47,720 nucleotides of DNA from an uncultured Chthonomonas sp. (GTDB lineage: Bacteria; Armatimonadota; Chthonomonadetes; Chthonomonadales; CAJBBX01), in NCBI GenBank assembly GCA_903885605.1, contig CAISJD010000169.1, forward strand, positions 1 through 47,720, given 5' to 3'. Under the pieces are notes generated by a model. That model saw nothing but the letters and a program-made list of their open reading frames with translations. It searched no databases and had not been told where the DNA came from. Positions 16,921 through 28,214 of the stretch are shown piece after piece. The translations under genes were made by a program, and so were the position numbers. Within the stretch, counting starts at the first letter, position 1. Each line of letters opens with the position of its first letter.

Positions 16921-17730
16921 GTGGACACAGGAAGCAGAGCGGTTGTGACGAGCAATGTCGCCTCCATGCGCGCAGAGCCTTCGGACCGATCCGAGAGGGT
17001 GAGCCAGGCCCTGCACGGGCATACGGTGCGGGTCCTCGAGGAGCAAGGCGCCTTCTGCCGCGTCCGCACGGCCGACCAGTATGAGGGTTGGATGCACAGC
17101 GCCGCCCTGCGGCGGCTCGCGCGGGGCGAGGAGTACCCGGACCTCGAACGCCTGAGGGTGGTCAGCCGGCCGCTGCTTCGGGTCCATGCCGCCGGGTGCG
17201 CGCCCTCCGGCGTGGCGCCTCCGTACCTGCTGTCGGCAGGAAGCCTGGTGGAGTGTGGCGATGTGGTCCGCCTGGCTGACGGCTCCACGGTGCGGCTGGC
17301 GGCTTCCGGACTGCGCACGCCCACCGATGCCGTGCCGACGCCGTCGGCCGTCCTGGCCGTAGCGCGGCGGTTCCTGGGCGTGCCGTACCTGTGGGGCGGA
17401 TCGAGCGCCTTCGGCCTGGATTGCTCCGGCTTCGTCCAACTCGCCTTCGGCCTTTGCGGCCTGCTGCTCCCGCGCGACGCCGACCTGCAGGCCGACTCGC
17501 CACTGCTCGCCGAGAGGCCCCTCGGCGCGCCGATGGCAGGGGACCTGCTCTTCTTCGGCCCGGCGCAGCCCGCAACCGGCCGGGCCATCACGCACGTGGC
17601 CATCGCCATGGCGGGCGGCAGGTACATCCACTCATCCGGACGCCTCGGCGTCGCGATCTCGCATGTGGGCGACGAGACGTGGCGCAGCCTTGTCCGCGTC
17701 CGGCGCCCGGCGTTCTGGCCTCCGCGCTAG
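16921..17730 (+). CDS. SH3b-NlpC/P60 murein peptidase (YkfC-like)
   Basis: A 269-residue protein: an SH3b domain (~8-60: SNVASMRAEPSDRSERVSQ, then YEGWMH), a second SH3-like segment (~70-135), and an NlpC/P60 cysteine peptidase domain. Likely catalytic residues are Cys168 (LDCSGF), His225 (ITHVAIAM) and His237 (YIHSSG). The architecture resembles gamma-D-glutamyl-diamino-acid endopeptidases of murein-peptide recycling. No signal peptide is visible from GTG 16921, which would fit an intracellular recycling role. GGGAGGAGC precedes the start. The long frame upstream is antisense to the fused ABC gene. It diverges from that operon. Confidence 0.88.
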   Translation: MDTGSRAVVTSNVASMRAEPSDRSERVSQALHGHTVRVLEEQGAFCRVRTADQYEGWMHSAALRRLARGEEYPDLERLRVVSRPLLRVHAAGCAPSGVAPPYLLSAGSLVECGDVVRLADGSTVRLAASGLRTPTDAVPTPSAVLAVARRFLGVPYLWGGSSAFGLDCSGFVQLAFGLCGLLLPRDADLQADSPLLAERPLGAPMAGDLLFFGPAQPATGRAITHVAIAMAGGRYIHSSGRLGVAISHVGDETWRSLVRVRRPAFWPPR

Positions 17731-20696
17731 AAGTTCAGGCCGAGATCGGCGTCGAAGGAGCTGACGGAATAGCTGTAGTTGCCGCTCGTAGAGGTGTCAT
17801 GGCTGATCGACTGCTGGTGCCGCATGCCCACCTGAAGCCGCAGCTGGCGGCCCATGTCGAACACGAGGCCCATGTTGAAGCGCCGGGCCAGCGCGGCCAG
17901 GTAGCCGGTACTGTTGGAGTGCTCGTACTCGGCGAAGACGTTGGTGGCGTGCCAAACCGGGTACTCCAGCCGAGTCCGGACCGAGGCCAGGTTGGTGCCG
18001 CCGGAGCCGAAGTAGGTGCCGTACCCACCCGTGTAGCCTCCGGTCCCGGTTGTGTCCGTAGTGGCCGTGCTGGTGGTGTTCTGGACGGAGACGCTGAGGT
18101 CGGTGACGAGCTTGCCCCAGGGCTTGCCGCGAGCATTGATGAACACGCCCATGTTGTTGCTGCCGCCCTCGGTACCCAGGTAGGTGACCTTCTGCAGCAT
18201 GAGGCCGCTGCTGAGCGAGAGCCGCTCCCCTGCGTTGTATGTAGCGCTCATGGAGAGGTCATTGCGCTTGCTGTTGTACATGTAGTCGCCGGCGCTGGCG
18301 CTGGTGCGGACCTGCGCCTCAATCGACAGGGCGCCGGCAGGCTGATAGCTCGCCGTCAGCCCCATCATGCGGGAGTTGCCGCCGAAGGAGCCGCTCCCCA
18401 TGCCGTAGTACCCCGAGTTGAACCCGCCGCTGTAGTTGCCCGATCCGCCCAGTCCGGTGTTGAAGCCTCCTCCGCCGTAGGTTCCGCCCCCGGTGTAGTA
18501 GGACTGGAGCCGCTGCATCAGGCCGGGGGCGGTGGCGGTGGAACCCGTCGTGTTGTTGAAGATCGAGTAGCCTCCGCTATCCTGCTTCTGGAGGTTTAGG
18601 GTCAGTTGGAGGGCCTTCATGGGGACGACCCGCCCTGTGAGCTGCAGGTCCAGCGCGTTGTTGCTGCCGCCGGTCCCGCTCTTCATGATGCTGTCCGATA
18701 TTTGGGCGTCCACCGAGTAGCGTTCGCCGGGCTTCCATCGCAGGCCGAGCCGGGAGGTCAACGCGTCGGTGTTGTAGCTCGTGGCCGTGGCGCCCACACT
18801 CGATGAGTAGGAGCCGGATGACCGGTTCACGTTGCGACCGAGCGACAGGTCGATGCCCCACGGCCCGGTGTTCGTTGTGTAGGCCAGCGTGTCCGATTGC
18901 ATGACGCTGTTGCCGGTGCCGCCGCTATAGGTGGTGTTCATGGAGTTGTGGCTGACGCTGAGGCTCCCTTTGCCCAGTTCCCACTTGCCGGTGATGCCGT
19001 TCTGGTTGTAGTCGTCCATCCCGGTTGAAGCGGCCAGGCCACCGGTGCTCGAGGTGGAGTAGGAGTACTGAGGGCGCCGCGAGCGCTGGTAGTTGGCCGT
19101 GATGCTCACGCGCTTGGATGGCGTGTAAGCGATATCGGTCTGGATGCCGCGCTCGTTGCGGTTGAAGCCTGGGCTCTCCACGGCCGTGAACGCGGGAGAG
19201 ATGTTCTTGTAGACCCAGTTGAGCCGGAGCTTCTCGCCGGCCAGGCGGTTCTCGCCGCGGATCTGCACCGCAGTGCCGCTGGACGGGCCGCCCGACAGCG
19301 AGAGCTTGCTGGAGGCCATCTCTGCAGTGATGGTGCCCGACTTGCCCATCGCCATCTGCGCGTCGAAGCCCATTACCTGCCGATCGCCTTGCGTCTCGGT
19401 CGAGGTGACCGGGGTGTAGGTGATGCGGATGATCTGTGTGCTTGGAATGGGCAGCTGAAAGTAGACGCGGTTAGGCAGCAGGGGATCAACGACGAAGTCC
19501 GTGCCATAGGCCTGGGGAAGCGTTCCCACGGTGACGGTCATCGGATACTTGGGCGTGCATCCAGTCAGCTTGCCGGCGGTGTCGTAGACCAGGGTCACAT
19601 CAACGGGTAGCTCCAGGGTATAGGGCGTGGTGGCGCTGTTGTAGCCGTAGAACTGCTCGGTGCGGCTGATGACGCCCTTGTTCGAACCCGATACCTGCGA
19701 CAGCATGCTGAAACCGACCTTGGGGCCGCTCGTGCCGCCGTAGTCGGCACGCCAGCCCATGATGGCGCCGCCGCTCTGGCCGTAGTTGTAAACCTCGAAG
19801 GTGACCGCGATCGTGTCCAGTTCGTGGACGATCAGGCCATTCAGGAAGTTGAGTTCGCCTGTATACGGGTCCAGCGTGTAGTCCGTGCCCTTCACGAGTT
19901 CGCGGTTGTTGACGCGCACCCGTTCGCTTCCGTCTACGATCTGGCCCGCGAAGACGTAGTAGGGGCCGGACCGGTTGGCGCCGTTGAGGGTGACCGTGCG
20001 CGTCTGTGCCTTCGACTTGCTCACCAGTGACGTGAGCCGCAGGTTGCGCGCCAGGTTGGCCGTGACCTGTATGCCCTTCAGCGACTTGGAGAAGCCGATG
20101 AGCGAGTTGCCGGTCAGGCCCGCCTGGATATCGCCGGCATTTACCTTGTAGTCGCGGGTGACGTAGTCCAGGGAAAGGCGGTTGTCGTACGGGCTACCGT
20201 ACAGGTAATCGCTGTAGTGTGTCTCGAAGTTCAGGATGCCGAAGAGCTTGCCGCGCACCGCCAGGTCGGTGCTGGTGTAGCCTCCACCCAGTGCTTTGCG
20301 GCCCAGGTACTGGGAGCTGTCGTAGGCGTCGCGGCTACCGTTAACCTGCTCCATATGGAACCCGAGGTTGTGCGAACCCTGCAGCTTCACCTCGGACTTG
20401 GTCTGCTCGCCAATCCTCTGTAGCTTGCTGCGCAGGCCGCCCAGGAGGCGGTCGGACTTCTTCGGCGTCTCGCCTTCAAAGGGCGCCTTGCCCCCTTTGA
20501 CCTTCTTCGGCTTCTTGGCTCCGGCCTTGGATTGGTCTGCCCGCTGCTGCTTGACTTCCGAGGGCGTCAGTGTGCGGATGCGCCGCATGATGTCCCAGGG
20601 GCTCTCTGCCTTGTCGGTTGCCTCCTGTGCCGATGCGCGAACGGCGCCTGTCACCACGAGGGCGAGCGTCACCAGTCGGAGTGCTCGGCCGATCAT
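17727..20696 (-). CDS. Large outer-membrane beta-barrel protein
   Basis: A 989-residue exported protein: signal peptide ending near ASAQ (~24), a lysine-rich linker (~50-75), a beta-rich middle, then a long run of amphipathic strands ending in phenylalanine (LGLNF), the usual C-terminal signature of outer-membrane barrels. Two GTD[Y/F]-x-x-DP elements (~268 and ~400), each followed by a strand-rich segment, suggest duplicated periplasmic beta domains. A Gly/Tyr-rich insert lies near 728-780. No plug, SLH or POTRA domain is recognised. The ATG overlaps the csaB stop by four bases. Its stop shares the palindrome CTAG with the stop of the convergent NlpC gene. Function unknown. Confidence 0.85.
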   Translation of the reverse strand: MIGRALRLVTLALVVTGAVRASAQEATDKAESPWDIMRRIRTLTPSEVKQQRADQSKAGAKKPKKVKGGKAPFEGETPKKSDRLLGGLRSKLQRIGEQTKSEVKLQGSHNLGFHMEQVNGSRDAYDSSQYLGRKALGGGYTSTDLAVRGKLFGILNFETHYSDYLYGSPYDNRLSLDYVTRDYKVNAGDIQAGLTGNSLIGFSKSLKGIQVTANLARNLRLTSLVSKSKAQTRTVTLNGANRSGPYYVFAGQIVDGSERVRVNNRELVKGTDYTLDPYTGELNFLNGLIVHELDTIAVTFEVYNYGQSGGAIMGWRADYGGTSGPKVGFSMLSQVSGSNKGVISRTEQFYGYNSATTPYTLELPVDVTLVYDTAGKLTGCTPKYPMTVTVGTLPQAYGTDFVVDPLLPNRVYFQLPIPSTQIIRITYTPVTSTETQGDRQVMGFDAQMAMGKSGTITAEMASSKLSLSGGPSSGTAVQIRGENRLAGEKLRLNWVYKNISPAFTAVESPGFNRNERGIQTDIAYTPSKRVSITANYQRSRRPQYSYSTSSTGGLAASTGMDDYNQNGITGKWELGKGSLSVSHNSMNTTYSGGTGNSVMQSDTLAYTTNTGPWGIDLSLGRNVNRSSGSYSSSVGATATSYNTDALTSRLGLRWKPGERYSVDAQISDSIMKSGTGGSNNALDLQLTGRVVPMKALQLTLNLQKQDSGGYSIFNNTTGSTATAPGLMQRLQSYYTGGGTYGGGGFNTGLGGSGNYSGGFNSGYYGMGSGSFGGNSRMMGLTASYQPAGALSIEAQVRTSASAGDYMYNSKRNDLSMSATYNAGERLSLSSGLMLQKVTYLGTEGGSNNMGVFINARGKPWGKLVTDLSVSVQNTTSTATTDTTGTGGYTGGYGTYFGSGGTNLASVRTRLEYPVWHATNVFAEYEHSNSTGYLAALARRFNMGLVFDMGRQLRLQVGMRHQQSISHDTSTSGNYSYSVSSFDADLGLNF

Positions 20697-21748
20697 CGGG
20701 CGACGACCTCTGCGACCAGCGCCGCCGTGCGGAGGGCCTCGCGCCGAAGCTCAATGCCGCGGGCGACCTGGAGCCGGCGAATCTCCGGCGTTGCGGCCAG
20801 TGCCGACCGGCAGAGTGCCTGTACGGGCGCGCTGCCGAATTCCTCGGTGCAGTAGGCCGAGAGCCTCGCCGAACTCATGAAAGACTTCACCTTTGGGTCG
20901 TACGAAAGGGCTACCACCGGGGTAGCCGCCATTACCGCGAACACCAGCGCGTGGAGGCGCATAGCCACCACGAGACCGGCGCCGCCCACCAGATCCAGCG
21001 CCGAGGCGACATCCGGCACATTGGCCACGAAGCAACCTTCACCTGCCAGAGCCGCAGCCTCGCGGGCGAGTGACACGTCCTCGCCGGCATGCATGGCCAG
21101 TAATGCTACGCGCTGAAGGCCCTCGCCCCGCACTGCCCGCACTAACTCGGCCGCGTCCGCCGCCGTCCGAAGCGAACCCCACGCCCGCAGCGCCAGCACT
21201 GCCAATTCGCCGCCGGGTTCCCTCTGCGGCCGCTCCGGCAGTGCGAAGGCCGGGTCGGCGGTCACCTCCAGCCGCGCCGTAGCGCCGCCGATTCTCCGCA
21301 CCAGCTCCGCCGAGTCTGGATCTCGAACCGTCACCAGCGCCGCGGTCCGAAACGCCGCCGCTGTGATCGTCCGCGACAGCGGCCGATGCAACGGACCCAC
21401 GCCCTGCGCGTAGACCACAGCCGGGAGGCCCATGCGGCGGGCCAACCAGAGGTAGCCCGCGTAGTAGAGCAGCGACCGGATGCTCGTGGCGTCCTGGAAG
21501 AGGCTTCCGCCTCCGGAGATCGCCACATCCGTCTCGGCCATGGCCGCGCGCACGGCACGCACGTCCATCCTTGGTACGGCACGGATGCCGTGCCATGTTT
21601 CCGTGGAGGCCGGCGCGCCGGATAGGGCGACCAGTCCCTTGGTGTCTCCGAACTGGTGGGCCCAGGAATGGACGATCCCACCCAGGACGGCCTCGTCGCC
21701 CAGGTTGCCGCATCCGTAGTAGCCGCAGAGCAACCCGCGCAGGCTCAT
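20693..21748 (-). CDS. csaB: Polysaccharide pyruvyl transferase
   Basis: A 351-residue enzyme of the CsaB family, which adds ketal pyruvate to a cell-wall polysaccharide so that SLH-domain proteins can bind it. Family elements are GYYGCGNLGDEAVLGGI at the start, ISGGGSLFQD-x-TS near residue 75, VYAQGVGPL and the late AMRLHALVFA and YDPKVKSF motifs. I start at ATG 21748, which overlaps the previous stop (ATGA); the frame upstream lies within the DUF5693 gene and is not coding. It sits between that membrane protein and an outer-membrane barrel, suggesting a role in cell-envelope cohesion. Confidence 0.93.
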   Translation of the reverse strand: MSLRGLLCGYYGCGNLGDEAVLGGIVHSWAHQFGDTKGLVALSGAPASTETWHGIRAVPRMDVRAVRAAMAETDVAISGGGSLFQDATSIRSLLYYAGYLWLARRMGLPAVVYAQGVGPLHRPLSRTITAAAFRTAALVTVRDPDSAELVRRIGGATARLEVTADPAFALPERPQREPGGELAVLALRAWGSLRTAADAAELVRAVRGEGLQRVALLAMHAGEDVSLAREAAALAGEGCFVANVPDVASALDLVGGAGLVVAMRLHALVFAVMAATPVVALSYDPKVKSFMSSARLSAYCTEEFGSAPVQALCRSALAATPEIRRLQVARGIELRREALRTAALVAEVVAR

Positions 21749-23757
21749 GCGCCCGGAGTGTTCCCTGCCTGCGCGGTCGCCATACGCCGCCCAAGCGCCA
21801 GCCATACAGCGCTGCCGATGGCGCAGCCCAACACCAGCCCGATGGCCACACGCGCCACCGACAGGTGTATGGGCGTGTGGATATGGCAGAACGTGTTGGC
21901 CATGGAGACCAGGCCCAGCATCCCCACGATGGTCAGCGCCGGCGCCCAGGTACGGCGGCCTGAAGCCGCCAGCGCCGCTCCGAGGAAGATCAGCGGGTGA
22001 CCGATCAGAAACTCCTTCGTGCGGGGGCGAACGATGAGCCACGCGTCCAGGATCGAGCGCACCCGAAGCTCCCAGCCCGAGACGCCGACGCCCGGCTCGT
22101 TACCCGTTCGCGCCACGGCGAACGCCAGCGCGACCAGTGCGACCATAGCGCCGCCTACCATTCCCACACGGAGCGGGCTGGACAGGAAGTCGCCCACACG
22201 CCTTCGCGTTGCCGGCAGGGCGGCGCGAAGGCTCTCGCCCGGTCCGGGCAGGCCGGTGACGGCTGCCAGGGCCACCAGCAGGACGGGCAGGGCGTGCGCC
22301 AGTTTGATGCCCGCGAACTGCTCCGTATGGAGCATGAAGTCTCGGTTGCAGAGCAGGCCCACCACGAGCAACCCGCCCGCCGCCGACAGCGCCGCGCCTC
22401 CCAACAGGCCTCTCAGACCTGCGGCGATGGGGGACGGGCTTCTGGCTCCGGCAGCGTTGCTCGAGCCGGACAGCAGTCTCAGTCCGGCCAGCGTAGGACA
22501 GGCGATGGCCGCGATCAGGGCCGCCGCCTTGGCGCCCAGATGCCCCGCCACGCCGCCCGCGGCGATCGCAAGCGCCACCAGAAGCAAGCCGACGGCCGCC
22601 GGAAGGCTCGCCTCTCCAAGCACGGCCAGCGCAACAAGCACCACGGCCGCGCCGGCCCCCAGCCCTGCCAGGGCGCGTACAGCCAAAGGCGCTACGGGCT
22701 CGCCCAACAGCCTCGCGGGTCCGGTTGCCATCTCGCCACGCTTGCCGAGGCCGCCCGCGATCGACTTGACCATGGCGAGGTTCTCACCGACAGGGTCAGG
22801 CCCCGTGAGGAACGGGAGGCGAATGTAGCAGAGCCGTATGTTCCGCTCTCGGGCGGCGCGTACGAAGCGCTCCACCGCCTCGGACGGCGCGATCTGCGAC
22901 AGCTCCGCCTCGGCGATGCTGTGTACACGCAGGAAGCGGCCCTCCAGTAGCTCCGCCAACCGCTCGTCGCCCTTCTGTTTGCCGAACTCGACCTGCCCCC
23001 AGATCAGTCCGCTTGCCACGAGCGCCTCGGCCGCGTCCCGCACACCGGCGCGGAAGCCCATCACCTCGGTGCCGGTGAAGACCATACTGCGGGCGCCCAG
23101 GGATCGGGCCGACCGGAGCGAGGCAGTCATCGAGGCGAGATCGGCTCCCGGGAAGTTACCGAGCCGCGCCACGACGCGAAGCCCTGCCCGTTGTACCTCG
23201 GTGCAGTCCTGGTTGGAGAGGCCCGTGCCGATGGTAAGCAGCGTCTCGGCGTCGGCCACGAAGGCCGCGACGGTGACCGGCTCGCCCCGATCGTCGGGAG
23301 CGACGGGTTCGTACCGCACCAGGGCAACCGGCGCGTTCAGGGGCGGCGCCTGGGACGCCAGCCCGGCGAGGCCCCGGTCCTCCAGGGCGGACGCCACTTG
23401 CGTGGCCAATCCGCGCGTCGAGCAGAGCAGCATGGATGCGGTGCCGGTAGATGTGATGCGGACCAGACCTGCCTGGCAGAGCTCGGCGACCGTGAGCTCG
23501 CTGACACCGACGGAGGAGACGCCCTGGGACTTGAAGCGTTTTAGGAGCGCTACGGTCGAGATGCCCTGCGTGGCGGCCAAGGCCCTGACCTGGTTCAGGT
23601 CGATGCACAGCTCAACGCGTCGGTTTCGCGCCTCGGTGCGGTGGCGCTGGAGGCCCAGCCAGCTCGATGCGGCGACGCCGACGACCAGACAGACCCACGC
23701 GAAGCGCCTGACGAAGAGAGACAGAACACACCCTCCAATAGGGCCGCCACCGACCAT
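21745..23757 (-). CDS. DUF5693-family multi-pass membrane protein
   Basis: A 670-residue protein: one N-terminal helix (~10-35), about 300 extracytoplasmic residues with an alpha/beta pattern, then eight or so helices to the C-terminus. The soluble part has short conserved-looking segments (ELCIDLNQVRALA, LLKRFKSQGVSSVGVSE, ARLGNFPGA) that fit a TIM-like domain. As I recall, proteins of this kind accompany csaB in other bacteria; function is unknown. ATG 23757 has AAGGGAG ten bases upstream. A CTG nine codons in, preceded by GGAGG, is a less likely alternative. It heads the DUF5693-csaB-barrel operon. Confidence 0.8.
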   Translation of the reverse strand: MVGGGPIGGCVLSLFVRRFAWVCLVVGVAASSWLGLQRHRTEARNRRVELCIDLNQVRALAATQGISTVALLKRFKSQGVSSVGVSELTVAELCQAGLVRITSTGTASMLLCSTRGLATQVASALEDRGLAGLASQAPPLNAPVALVRYEPVAPDDRGEPVTVAAFVADAETLLTIGTGLSNQDCTEVQRAGLRVVARLGNFPGADLASMTASLRSARSLGARSMVFTGTEVMGFRAGVRDAAEALVASGLIWGQVEFGKQKGDERLAELLEGRFLRVHSIAEAELSQIAPSEAVERFVRAARERNIRLCYIRLPFLTGPDPVGENLAMVKSIAGGLGKRGEMATGPARLLGEPVAPLAVRALAGLGAGAAVVLVALAVLGEASLPAAVGLLLVALAIAAGGVAGHLGAKAAALIAAIACPTLAGLRLLSGSSNAAGARSPSPIAAGLRGLLGGAALSAAGGLLVVGLLCNRDFMLHTEQFAGIKLAHALPVLLVALAAVTGLPGPGESLRAALPATRRRVGDFLSSPLRVGMVGGAMVALVALAFAVARTGNEPGVGVSGWELRVRSILDAWLIVRPRTKEFLIGHPLIFLGAALAASGRRTWAPALTIVGMLGLVSMANTFCHIHTPIHLSVARVAIGLVLGCAIGSAVWLALGRRMATAQAGNTPGA

Positions 23758-24310: not shown

Positions 24311-25606
24311 ATGCGCAACCTATGGGCGCTCGTCGCCCTTGTCCATGGCCTTGCTGCGCCTGTCTCTCCGGCCGCCGCGCAGGCCAGTGCTCCCGCCGAT
24401 GTCGAACAACTGAAGGCCGTCGTTGCCAAGCAGGCCGAGATGATCCGCGAACTGCAGGAGCGCCTGAGCAAGCTTGAGGGTGCGTCTGCTGCGGGCAAGG
24501 CGCAGTCCAGCGATGAGCCGCCGGTGCCCGCAGTGACGCTGCCCATGCCCGCGAGTCCGTCGCGGTCGGTCGGGCAGGGCGGCTCGGCGTCCGCGCTGCC
24601 CGACATCGCGGTCTTCGGCAACAACCTCGGCCGCTTGCTCGCCGCCAAGGGCGAGCCGTCCCGGAGCCAGTTCCGCATATCGGAGCTAGAGCTCGCCTTG
24701 CAGCAGCGTGTGGCCGACGGAGTGCTCTTCCGCTCCACGCTGGCGGCGGGTGAGGAAGCGGACTTCGCCATGGGGCTGGAGGAAGGCTACGTCACCTTCA
24801 CCAGGCTCGGCGTGCCGGGCCTCGGGGGAACGCTGGGCAAGCGGCGATTGCCGTTCGGCAAGCTGAACCCCATCCATCCCCACGCCGCCCCGTACGCCGA
24901 GACACCGGCCGCGCTCCGCTATCTCGCCGATCCCGACGGCCTCTCCGGCAATGGCGCGGCGCTGAACTGGCTACTCCCGATACCGTCCCTCTACGCCAAT
25001 CTGGAGCTGGGAGCCGTGCAGGTCGGAGCATCGGACGCGGAGGTCGCTCGGCCGGACCTCACCGGCGCGACGCTCCCGCTCGGGCTTGGAGCCACCGGCA
25101 CGGTCCCCATGGGGCGGCTCTGGCTATCGAAGGCGCTGAACCCGAGCACCGAACTCGAGATGGGCTCGAGCGCCCTTGCGGGAAAGGCGGACAGCGGCGA
25201 CTCGGTTCGTCTGGTCGGCGCCGATGTGACGCTCAAGCAGGCGCTCGGGGCGTTTAGCCGATGGCAGCTTCAGGGCGAGGCGCTGTGGCACACGCGTAGG
25301 GACGCCGGCTCCCGCCTATCCCACACTCGCTCCGGCGCCTACCTCGCGGCCCTCTATGCTCCGGACCAGTACCGTGAGTTCGGCCTGCGCTACGACGACA
25401 GCCGCCTTCCCTGGCCGTTGGAGGGCGGCGAACGGCTGCTCTCGCTGATCTGGTCCAATCGCCTGACCGAGAGCTCGCTCTGGCGCCTGCAGTTGGCGCA
25501 TGGAGACCGGACCACCGATGCCTTGCTGCCGTCGCGGCGGGGCCTCACGGAGCTGACGTTGCAGTTCGTCTGGGGTGCGGGTTCCCACTCGCATCCGTTG
25601 CAGTAG
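24311..25606 (+). CDS. Porin-like outer-membrane protein of the zinc cluster
   Basis: A 431-residue exported protein: signal peptide (MRNLWALVALVHG, ending near PAAAQA), a coiled coil at ~32-58 (VEQLKAVVAKQAEMIRELQE), a Pro/Ser linker, then ~330 residues of alternating strands typical of a beta-barrel (SQFRISELELALQQRV, then FAMGLEEGYVTF). The N-terminal coiled coil before a barrel recalls porins of diderms that trimerise or reach the wall. It ends in HSHPLQ rather than an aromatic residue. AGAGGA precedes ATG 24311. It is directly followed by znuA-znuC-znuB, so it is likely a zinc-regulated outer-membrane channel. Confidence 0.8.
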   Translation: MRNLWALVALVHGLAAPVSPAAAQASAPADVEQLKAVVAKQAEMIRELQERLSKLEGASAAGKAQSSDEPPVPAVTLPMPASPSRSVGQGGSASALPDIAVFGNNLGRLLAAKGEPSRSQFRISELELALQQRVADGVLFRSTLAAGEEADFAMGLEEGYVTFTRLGVPGLGGTLGKRRLPFGKLNPIHPHAAPYAETPAALRYLADPDGLSGNGAALNWLLPIPSLYANLELGAVQVGASDAEVARPDLTGATLPLGLGATGTVPMGRLWLSKALNPSTELEMGSSALAGKADSGDSVRLVGADVTLKQALGAFSRWQLQGEALWHTRRDAGSRLSHTRSGAYLAALYAPDQYREFGLRYDDSRLPWPLEGGERLLSLIWSNRLTESSLWRLQLAHGDRTTDALLPSRRGLTELTLQFVWGAGSHSHPLQ

Positions 25607-25618
25607 GAGGAGACCGCC

Positions 25619-26527
25619 GTGAAGACACCATTGGCATTGCTGGTCGCCGCTGCCGCCGCGTCCCTATGCATGAGCCGGGCCGCCGCCGAGCTCCGCATCA
25701 TCACGGTTGACACAAGCCTCGCCGATATCGCCAGGCAGGTGGCGGGAGATAGGGCCTCCGTGGAGTCGCTCGCACGCCCATCAGACGACCCGCACCACGT
25801 GGTTGCCCGACCCAGCATGATCGTGAAGCTCTCCCGCGCCGATGTGTTCGCGCGGATCGGCATGGGCCTCGACATGTGGGCCGACGCCCTGCTTGACCGC
25901 TCAGGGAACGCGTCAGTCCAGCCCGGCGGCAAGGGGTATGTCGACTGCTCGCGAGGTCTGAAGGCGCTGGATGTGCCCTCGGGCAAGATCGACCCGTCGA
26001 TGGGCGATCTGCATCCCGAGGGCAATCCGCACTATCTGCTGGACCCGGCTCAGGGCATCCTGGCCGCCGGCAACATCGCCGCCGCCCTGATCCGGGTCGA
26101 CCCTTCCGGTCAGCCCTATTACCATTCGCGCTTCGTGCAGTTCGGCGAGCGCGTTAAGGCCGGCCTGCAACGCTGGTCGACTGCGCTGAAGGGCCTCCCC
26201 AACCGCGATGTGGTGCCGTTCCACAGGAGCTGGGCCTACTTCCTCGCGCGGTTCGGGCTGCGCGAATTCGGGGTGCTGGAACCGAGGCCGGGCATTGAGC
26301 CGTCGCCCGGCCATGTGGGGGCGCTTGCCCGGCTAATGAAGCAGGCCGGGGTCAAGGTCGTCCTATGTGAGTCCTTCCGATCCAAACGGTGGCCTGACCT
26401 GTTGGCGGGCCAGTGCGGCGCCGTGCCGGCCTTCGTCCCGGTTGCCGTGGGAGCGGACCCGCAGGCCGGTAGCTACATCGCAATGTTTGACACCATCATT
26501 GAGCGCCTCGTCGGCGCGGCCGGATAG
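25619..26527 (+). CDS. znuA: Zinc/manganese ABC transporter substrate-binding protein
   Basis: A 302-residue cluster A-I binding protein with a signal peptide (cleavage near AAA-E24). Candidate metal ligands are His59/His60 (DDPHHVV), His132 or His138 (LHPEGNPHYLLDP), His202 (PFHRSWAYF) and a C-terminal Asp/Glu. The long His-rich loop of classical ZnuA is missing. GTG 25619 follows an AGGAGGA site 12 bases after the porin stop. It captures metal in the periplasm for the ZnuCB channel. Confidence 0.9.
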   Translation: MKTPLALLVAAAAASLCMSRAAAELRIITVDTSLADIARQVAGDRASVESLARPSDDPHHVVARPSMIVKLSRADVFARIGMGLDMWADALLDRSGNASVQPGGKGYVDCSRGLKALDVPSGKIDPSMGDLHPEGNPHYLLDPAQGILAAGNIAAALIRVDPSGQPYYHSRFVQFGERVKAGLQRWSTALKGLPNRDVVPFHRSWAYFLARFGLREFGVLEPRPGIEPSPGHVGALARLMKQAGVKVVLCESFRSKRWPDLLAGQCGAVPAFVPVAVGADPQAGSYIAMFDTIIERLVGAAG

Positions 26528-26530
26528 TCT

Positions 26531-27325
26531 GTGGGATCCAACGGCGAGAGGCCTGCCCTGCTGGTTCAGGTTCGCTCTGCCTCGCTGGGCTATGCCGGCA
26601 GGCCGGTACTCACCGATATCAACCTCGATATCCGGCAAGGCGACTATGTCGGGATCGTCGGACCGAACGGTAGCGGCAAGACCACGCTGCTCCGTTCGGT
26701 CCTTGGCCTGCTAAGACCGGTCTCCGGCGTGGTGACCCGCTTCGCCGGCGTCTCTGTAGGCTATGTCCCCCAGCGCGATACTGTGGACCCCACGTACCCG
26801 CTGACCGTTCTCGATATCGTGCTTATGGGCCTCTACTGCCGCGTAGGGGCCCTGCGCCGGATTTCGAGGGCCGACCACGATGCAAGCATGGAGGCCCTCG
26901 GCCACGTAGGGTTGGCTGACCAGTCCGATCGGCCGTTTCGGGCACTGTCAGGGGGTCAGAGGCAACGGGTCTTGCTGGCGCGTGCCCTGGCAGGCAGGCC
27001 GTCCCTGCTGCTGATGGATGAACCCACGAACGGGATGGACTTGCCTGCTGAGCACTCCATGATGCTGCTGGTCGACCACCTGAGGCGGGAGCATGGCCTC
27101 ACCGTGGTAATGGTCAGCCATCTGCTCAACACCGTGGTGAACCATGTCGACAGCGTTCTGATGGTAGGGGAGGGGCGCATCCGCTTTGGCGCTGTTTCTG
27201 AGATGGTGTCTGAGCCAGTGCTTGCCGCCCTCTATGCCATGGATGTGCAGGTGGCTCAGGTGGGAAGCCGCACGGTCGTGATGCCCGCCGGCAGGGCGGA
27301 GGGCAAGTCCGATGACGCTGATTGA
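26531..27325 (+). CDS. znuC: Zinc/manganese ABC transporter ATPase
   Basis: A 264-residue ATPase with Walker A GPNGSGKT (44-51), a Q-loop around VPQRDTVDP, signature LSGGQRQRVLLARAL, Walker B LLLMDEPTNGMD and the switch histidine in VMVSHLLN. It powers metal import through ZnuB. It starts at GTG 26531, three bases after znuA, and overlaps znuB by 14 bases. Confidence 0.93.
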   Translation: MGSNGERPALLVQVRSASLGYAGRPVLTDINLDIRQGDYVGIVGPNGSGKTTLLRSVLGLLRPVSGVVTRFAGVSVGYVPQRDTVDPTYPLTVLDIVLMGLYCRVGALRRISRADHDASMEALGHVGLADQSDRPFRALSGGQRQRVLLARALAGRPSLLLMDEPTNGMDLPAEHSMMLLVDHLRREHGLTVVMVSHLLNTVVNHVDSVLMVGEGRIRFGAVSEMVSEPVLAALYAMDVQVAQVGSRTVVMPAGRAEGKSDDAD

Positions 27326-28214
27326 TGTGGTCGACAGCCTGCGCCTGAACGCGATCGGGCTCATGGCCGGGATGGCCGCCGCGGCCGCCTGCTCGTTCCT
27401 CGGCGTTTATGTGGTCCTGCGGCGCATCGTCTTTGTTGGGGCCGCCCTGGCGCAGGTGGCCGGCGCAGGCATCGCCCTTGCGTTCCTGATCGGTCCATTG
27501 CTGGCTGGCGTCGCCCACCGGCTCATGCATGTGAGCGGGCCGCTCCCGCATGTCGGCATGGCCCTTGAGCGCCTCGTCCGCGACCCTCTGGCGGTCTCGC
27601 TCCTCGTGACCGTCCTGGCCGCGGCGCTACTGGCGAAACCGGCCATGGGCGCCGCGGCGGCGAGGGATGCGCGCATCGGCATGACGTACCTGGCCGCCTC
27701 CGCCCTGAGCCTCGTGTTCATCGTCCGGAGCCCCAAGGGCCTGGACGATGTGCGCGAGCTACTGGACGGGAACATTGTTGCGGTATTGAACGGGGACCTG
27801 ATTCAGATGGTGGTCGTCTTCGCCCTGGTCGCCCTGACCCATGCGGCGTTCTACCGTCAGATCCTGTTCGTCAGCTTCGATCCCGAAATGGCCGCCACCC
27901 AGGGCTTCCGTGTCCGCCGATGGGAGCAGCTCTTCTTTGCCACACTCGCCGTGGTCATCTCGGTTGCCATCAGCAAGGCGGGGCTGGTGGCCGTGTTCGC
28001 CTACCTGGTATTCCCAGCGGCTACGGCGCTCAGGCTGGTACGTCGCATGGGTGCGGCGTTCGCGGTTTCTGTGGCGCTAGGTATCGTCGCGACCATTGCA
28101 GGATACGTGGTTGCGCTCCTGGCGGACCTGCCCACGAGCCCGCCGACGATCGGGGTGCTATGTGCGTTCTGGCTCGCCGCATCGGTCTACAGGTGGCGTC
28201 GGCCTCTTGAGTGA
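27312..28214 (+). CDS. znuB: Zinc/manganese ABC transporter permease
   Basis: A 300-residue ABC-3 family permease with eight or nine hydrophobic helices. The family coupling region FDPEMAATQGF lies near residue 190, and SKAGLVAVFAYLVFPAATA follows in a later helix. It forms the inner-membrane metal channel with ZnuC. The start overlaps znuC. A new -10 element and pth follow within 70 bases. Confidence 0.92.
   Translation: MTLIDVVDSLRLNAIGLMAGMAAAAACSFLGVYVVLRRIVFVGAALAQVAGAGIALAFLIGPLLAGVAHRLMHVSGPLPHVGMALERLVRDPLAVSLLVTVLAAALLAKPAMGAAAARDARIGMTYLAASALSLVFIVRSPKGLDDVRELLDGNIVAVLNGDLIQMVVVFALVALTHAAFYRQILFVSFDPEMAATQGFRVRRWEQLFFATLAVVISVAISKAGLVAVFAYLVFPAATALRLVRRMGAAFAVSVALGIVATIAGYVVALLADLPTSPPTIGVLCAFWLAASVYRWRRPLE

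Follow-up and report, generated by a model that had tools for sequence, protein, structure and literature searches.

The window, by which we mean the whole 47,720-nt stretch of Armatimonadota DNA analysed here, carries three consecutive envelope genes on its reverse strand. The first encodes a polytopic DUF5693 membrane protein of 670 aa (21745..23757), the second the polysaccharide pyruvyl transferase CsaB (351 aa, 20693..21748), and the third a 989-aa protein with the sequence pattern of a large outer-membrane barrel (17727..20696). Inspection of both junctions confirmed the order and coordinates of the original prediction, including the ATGA overlaps between DUF5693 and csaB (21745..21748) and between csaB and the barrel gene (20693..20696), all on the reverse strand. 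The operon comprises exactly these three genes, as the gene upstream is divergent and the NlpC/P60 gene downstream is convergent. The NlpC/P60 protein (16966-17730) contains SH3 domains, and at four other loci (L004, L005, L119 and L120) the gene in this place belongs to the same cluster. The divergent gene (24311-25606) encodes a porin-like protein that contains a SlyX-like coiled coil. Genes for a binding protein of the ZnuA type, an ABC ATPase and a permease follow it, and the whole span (24311-28214) is possibly an operon for metal uptake that includes an outer-membrane channel of its own.

The proposed identities of the first two products hold. DUF5693 matches PF18949 over its full length (positions 1-604 of 609, E = 9.7e-132), with a layout, predicted from sequence, of one N-terminal transmembrane helix, a large extracytoplasmic part and a multi-helix membrane part containing invariant charged residues. 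The open-access literature that we searched contained no mention of DUF5693. This protein tracks CsaB, and among the control genomes Thermus, Deinobacterium and Thermotoga have matches to DUF5693 as well as to CsaB and SLH domains. CsaB itself matches PS_pyruv_trans in Pfam (E = 8.3e-33) and exceeds the NCBIfam cut-off for TIGR03609 (264.5 versus 213.1 bits). Its RLH motif, followed by a lysine at +20, corresponds to R306/H308/K328 of the Paenibacillus alvei enzyme; judged by motif rather than by alignment, the arginine of its VRD motif corresponds to R148 and its YYG motif to Y14, while F16 is a cysteine in the window. Having kept these PEP-site residues, the protein is predicted to be a pyruvyl transferase. 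CsaB pyruvylates a lipid-linked repeat (PMC6030368), and the window resembles the secondary-cell-wall-polymer pyruvylation loci of P. alvei, Bacillus anthracis and Thermus thermophilus in having a CsaB above cut-off, retained PEP-site residues and SLH clients in the same genome. In P. alvei, however, csaB shares a transcript with tagA and tagO (PMC6030368), whereas csaB in the window is overlapped by the genes for DUF5693 and an outer-membrane barrel.

The third protein matched no Pfam family, in agreement with its earlier description as a barrel of unknown family. It begins with a signal-peptide-like segment, is rich in strands (several dozen, as suggested by a crude alternation count) and ends in phenylalanine, as do nearly all aligned family members except a few with C-terminal extensions. 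Such a C-terminal residue is expected of an outer-membrane protein folded by BAM. On the strength of this sequence pattern, we assign the protein to a putative new family of very large outer-membrane barrels. AlphaFold models built with close relatives only reached a pLDDT of 27 for the barrel and 34 for DUF5693, and profile searches of solved structures returned nothing meaningful for either. Following the signal peptide, the window barrel has the motif ESPWDIMRRI (residues 31-40, 20577..20606, reverse strand), the counterpart of an (S/T)LW(D/E)xL motif that is common to the window's family and order and is repeated in some members.

Within the barrel family, 19 of 24 aligned members match the profile of SprA/Sov, the outer-membrane translocon of type IX secretion (TIGR04189; best E = 2e-21, below cut-off). 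Nearly all of these matches fall at profile positions of about 593-690. In the window barrel, the SprA-type unit spans residues 250-334 (19695..19949, reverse strand; profile positions 601-686) and scores 34.9 bits over ~90 positions against a cut-off of 200 bits. A second, similar DY...F unit, identified by eye in the family alignment, lies at about residues 385-430 (19407..19544, reverse strand). We rejected membership in type IX secretion on the basis of the sub-threshold score and the coverage of only ~90 positions. Instead, the barrel and SprA have a ~90-residue unit in common, in proteins of about 1000 and about 2300 residues, respectively. No full SprA exceeded the 200-bit cut-off in any of 151 genomes of Armatimonadota, and a GldM search gave no match in these genomes or in the control genomes.

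The same draw of 151 genomes served to survey relatives for the trio, whose absence there would have marked the three genes as chance neighbours. DUF5693 is present in 146 genomes and CsaB in 149; a single-sequence search found a relative of the barrel in 113, some of them short matches to the unit, and a profile search found strong matches in 104 genomes from 25 families, leaving 12 families with none. The DUF5693 gene lies directly upstream of csaB in 118 of the 137 genomes having both, and csaB is followed within 1.5 kb by a same-strand barrel gene in 54 of the 99 that have csaB and barrel, representing 11 families. All three genes are found together in 51 genomes, with the genes of many others on separate contigs of draft assemblies; in several families the barrel is unlinked from csaB. 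Four-base overlaps recur even in distant relatives, between csaB and the barrel gene at L111 and between DUF5693 and csaB at L106 and L077. On the DUF5693 tree, the trio turns up here and there among several deep branches, which fits an old arrangement followed by losses and dispersal, although many of the deep forks have weak support. The three genes thus form a genuine operon, found repeatedly across the phylum, and their retention in 11 families marks a functional neighbourhood rather than a chance one.

When genes were called at about 60 loci with a home-made finder, a longer cassette emerged in some distant families, with the order DUF5693-csaB-barrel-c10-c2-c4-LptC-LptA. Here c10 is a CarboxypepD_reg protein with a lipobox-like start, c2 a secreted protein of about 1000 aa with FlgD_ig at its C-terminus, and c4 a CarboxypepD_reg lipoprotein. 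Locus L111 carries the whole cassette in order, with LptC and LptA calls that are weak alone and strong in relatives. Where the barrel lies away from csaB, it often retains c2 and c4 (L089-L092, L099, L103-L105), and barrel-less genomes can keep DUF5693-csaB-(c10)-LptC-LptA (L067, L068, L070). The window's own family keeps c2-c4 apart from the barrel, at another locus (L193, L195, L211, L212). Counting strong matches in lists compiled by hand, in which fragments underlie a few c2 entries, barrel and c2 occur together in 103 genomes, while 1 has the barrel without c2, 5 have c2 without the barrel and 42 lack both; the corresponding numbers of families are 25, 0, 1 and 11. Fisher p-values for this association take no account of common descent among the genomes. 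Barrel-less genomes also encode the C-terminal module of c2, which weakens the idea that proteins bearing this module all leave through the barrel: it cannot be their sole exporter. In the N-terminal part of c2 proteins (e.g. L196:8725-11742), H...H and WEEG motifs look like a degenerate zinc-protease site; this part matched no Pfam peptidase family.

What does the barrel do beside csaB? The original prediction suggested a dedicated outer-membrane tethering or polymer-export system, given that csaB shares its operon with a barrel rather than with an SLH protein, and noted a lysine-rich linker of the barrel that could touch the pyruvylated polymer. SLH domains bind this polymer, and a motif for ketal-pyruvate binding has been described (PMC10628300). 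The lack of an SLH client that would make csaB need this barrel is not supported: SLH domains occur in 144 of the 151 genomes, and the window's own genome encodes elsewhere a protein with the architecture of OmpM (L003; SLH, coiled coil and Porin_O_P), whose SLH domain has TRYE, like the described motif. Nor is the linker's role: in the window barrel the linker contains 14 lysines with a net charge of about +10, but the charge is +1 to +6 in sampled same-family relatives, strong basicity is confined to the window's genus, and many distant members have a linker of only 5-22 residues. For want of conservation, we rejected it as a polymer binder. The barrel resembles the OmpM/SlpA tethers in its large size, its outer-membrane character and its association with a pyruvylated wall polymer; unlike them, it has no Pfam SLH match and no visible coiled-coil stalk, and a scan of 24 family members found no SLH or other wall-binding domain. 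That the barrel's N-terminal segment grips the polymer to tie the outer membrane to the wall thus seems quite unlikely, despite an operon with csaB kept in many families and the basic linker of the genus, and the barrel is probably not such a tether. A second candidate role, prompted by the failure of the Pfam LptD model (PF04453) to find anything above cut-off in the 151 genomes, is that of the phylum's LptD, which would take LPS from the LptC- and LptA-like genes that adjoin the barrel or csaB in several families. A profile built from eight large OstA-domain ORFs, however, revealed in 149 of 151 genomes a divergent LptD that the Pfam model misses (720-870 aa, with an OstA domain at the N-terminus followed by a barrel), including at L159-L161 and L166-L171 and, following LptF/G, in the window's own genome (G000:C174:12482-14563; L194:7315-9567). 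Its profile showed no relation to that of the window barrel, which itself has no Pfam match to the LptD barrel model or the OstA N-terminal domain. We therefore rejected the barrel as an LptD replacement, a role that we regard as highly improbable.

We tentatively favour a reading in which the trio belongs to an old envelope locus, with DUF5693 and CsaB making the polymer gripped by OmpM and the barrel acting in a separate surface module. CsaB would add ketal pyruvate to the lipid-linked repeat of a secondary cell-wall polymer, and DUF5693 may handle that polymer at the inner membrane in a neighbouring step such as polymerisation, flipping or ligation. The finished polymer would then be held by SLH proteins encoded elsewhere, chiefly OmpM. 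The barrel, c2 and the CarboxypepD_reg lipoproteins c4 and c10 might together form a complex at the outer membrane, with the barrel, in the simplest case, acting as a pore or scaffold by which c2 gets to the cell surface or is seated there; this module is the least certain part of the scheme, and we propose it only provisionally. The barrel may stay beside csaB because envelope growth calls for the joint production of wall polymer, LptC/LptA and the surface module. In favour of this reading are the trio in 11 families, the longer cassette, the 103 genomes with barrel and c2 against 6 exceptions, the retention of c2-c4 by barrels apart from csaB, the SprA-type unit in 19 of 24 members, OmpM in the genome and the PEP-site residues of CsaB. 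Against it stand the separate c2-c4 locus in the window's own family, the c2 C-terminal module in barrel-less genomes, the 12 families with no strong barrel match and the SprA unit's length of only ~90 residues. Those 12 families, and the unlinking of barrel from csaB in several others, could also be accounted for by an ordinary large porin or structural protein that sits in an envelope locus for co-regulation only, with no specific partner; this is rather doubtful, as the tight co-occurrence with c2 and the SprA-type unit both point to something more specific. Export of a polysaccharide across the outer membrane, such as the CsaB-modified polymer itself, would suit an operon with a polymer-modifying enzyme and the one weak EpsL match among the 24 members. 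We consider it unlikely, since we identified no Wza-like or other polysaccharide-export partner in the cassette, and in known systems the polymer, once pyruvylated, is attached to the wall (PMC6030368), so that it need not cross the outer membrane.

OmpM is the chief link known so far between outer membrane and wall in diderm Terrabacteria, whose coordination of the two is still an unanswered question. A phylum-wide locus that brings DUF5693 and CsaB together with LptC/LptA and a new family of giant barrels offers named genes to test. More speculatively, and with rather little confidence, we suggest a machine for secretion or assembly that is specific to Armatimonadota, in which a compact, SprA-like barrel would work with lipoproteins of its own and with c2 as its dedicated surface protein, from the same transcript as wall-polymer pyruvylation. 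If this were true, placing an SprA-like machine on the pyruvylation transcript would keep the growth of wall, surface and outer membrane coordinated. The divergent LptD described above bears on the reported failure to find LptD in diderm Firmicutes (PMC5007114).

Two further observations emerged from the survey. Family f21 (G083, G037, G048, G023, G109 and others) is without both barrel and c2; each of its genomes has at least 25 SLH domains, against 1-9 in most other families. Separately, the same SprA-type unit is found in another set of ORFs, about 1160-1200 codons long (G003:C60, G018:C11, G044:C6 and similar).
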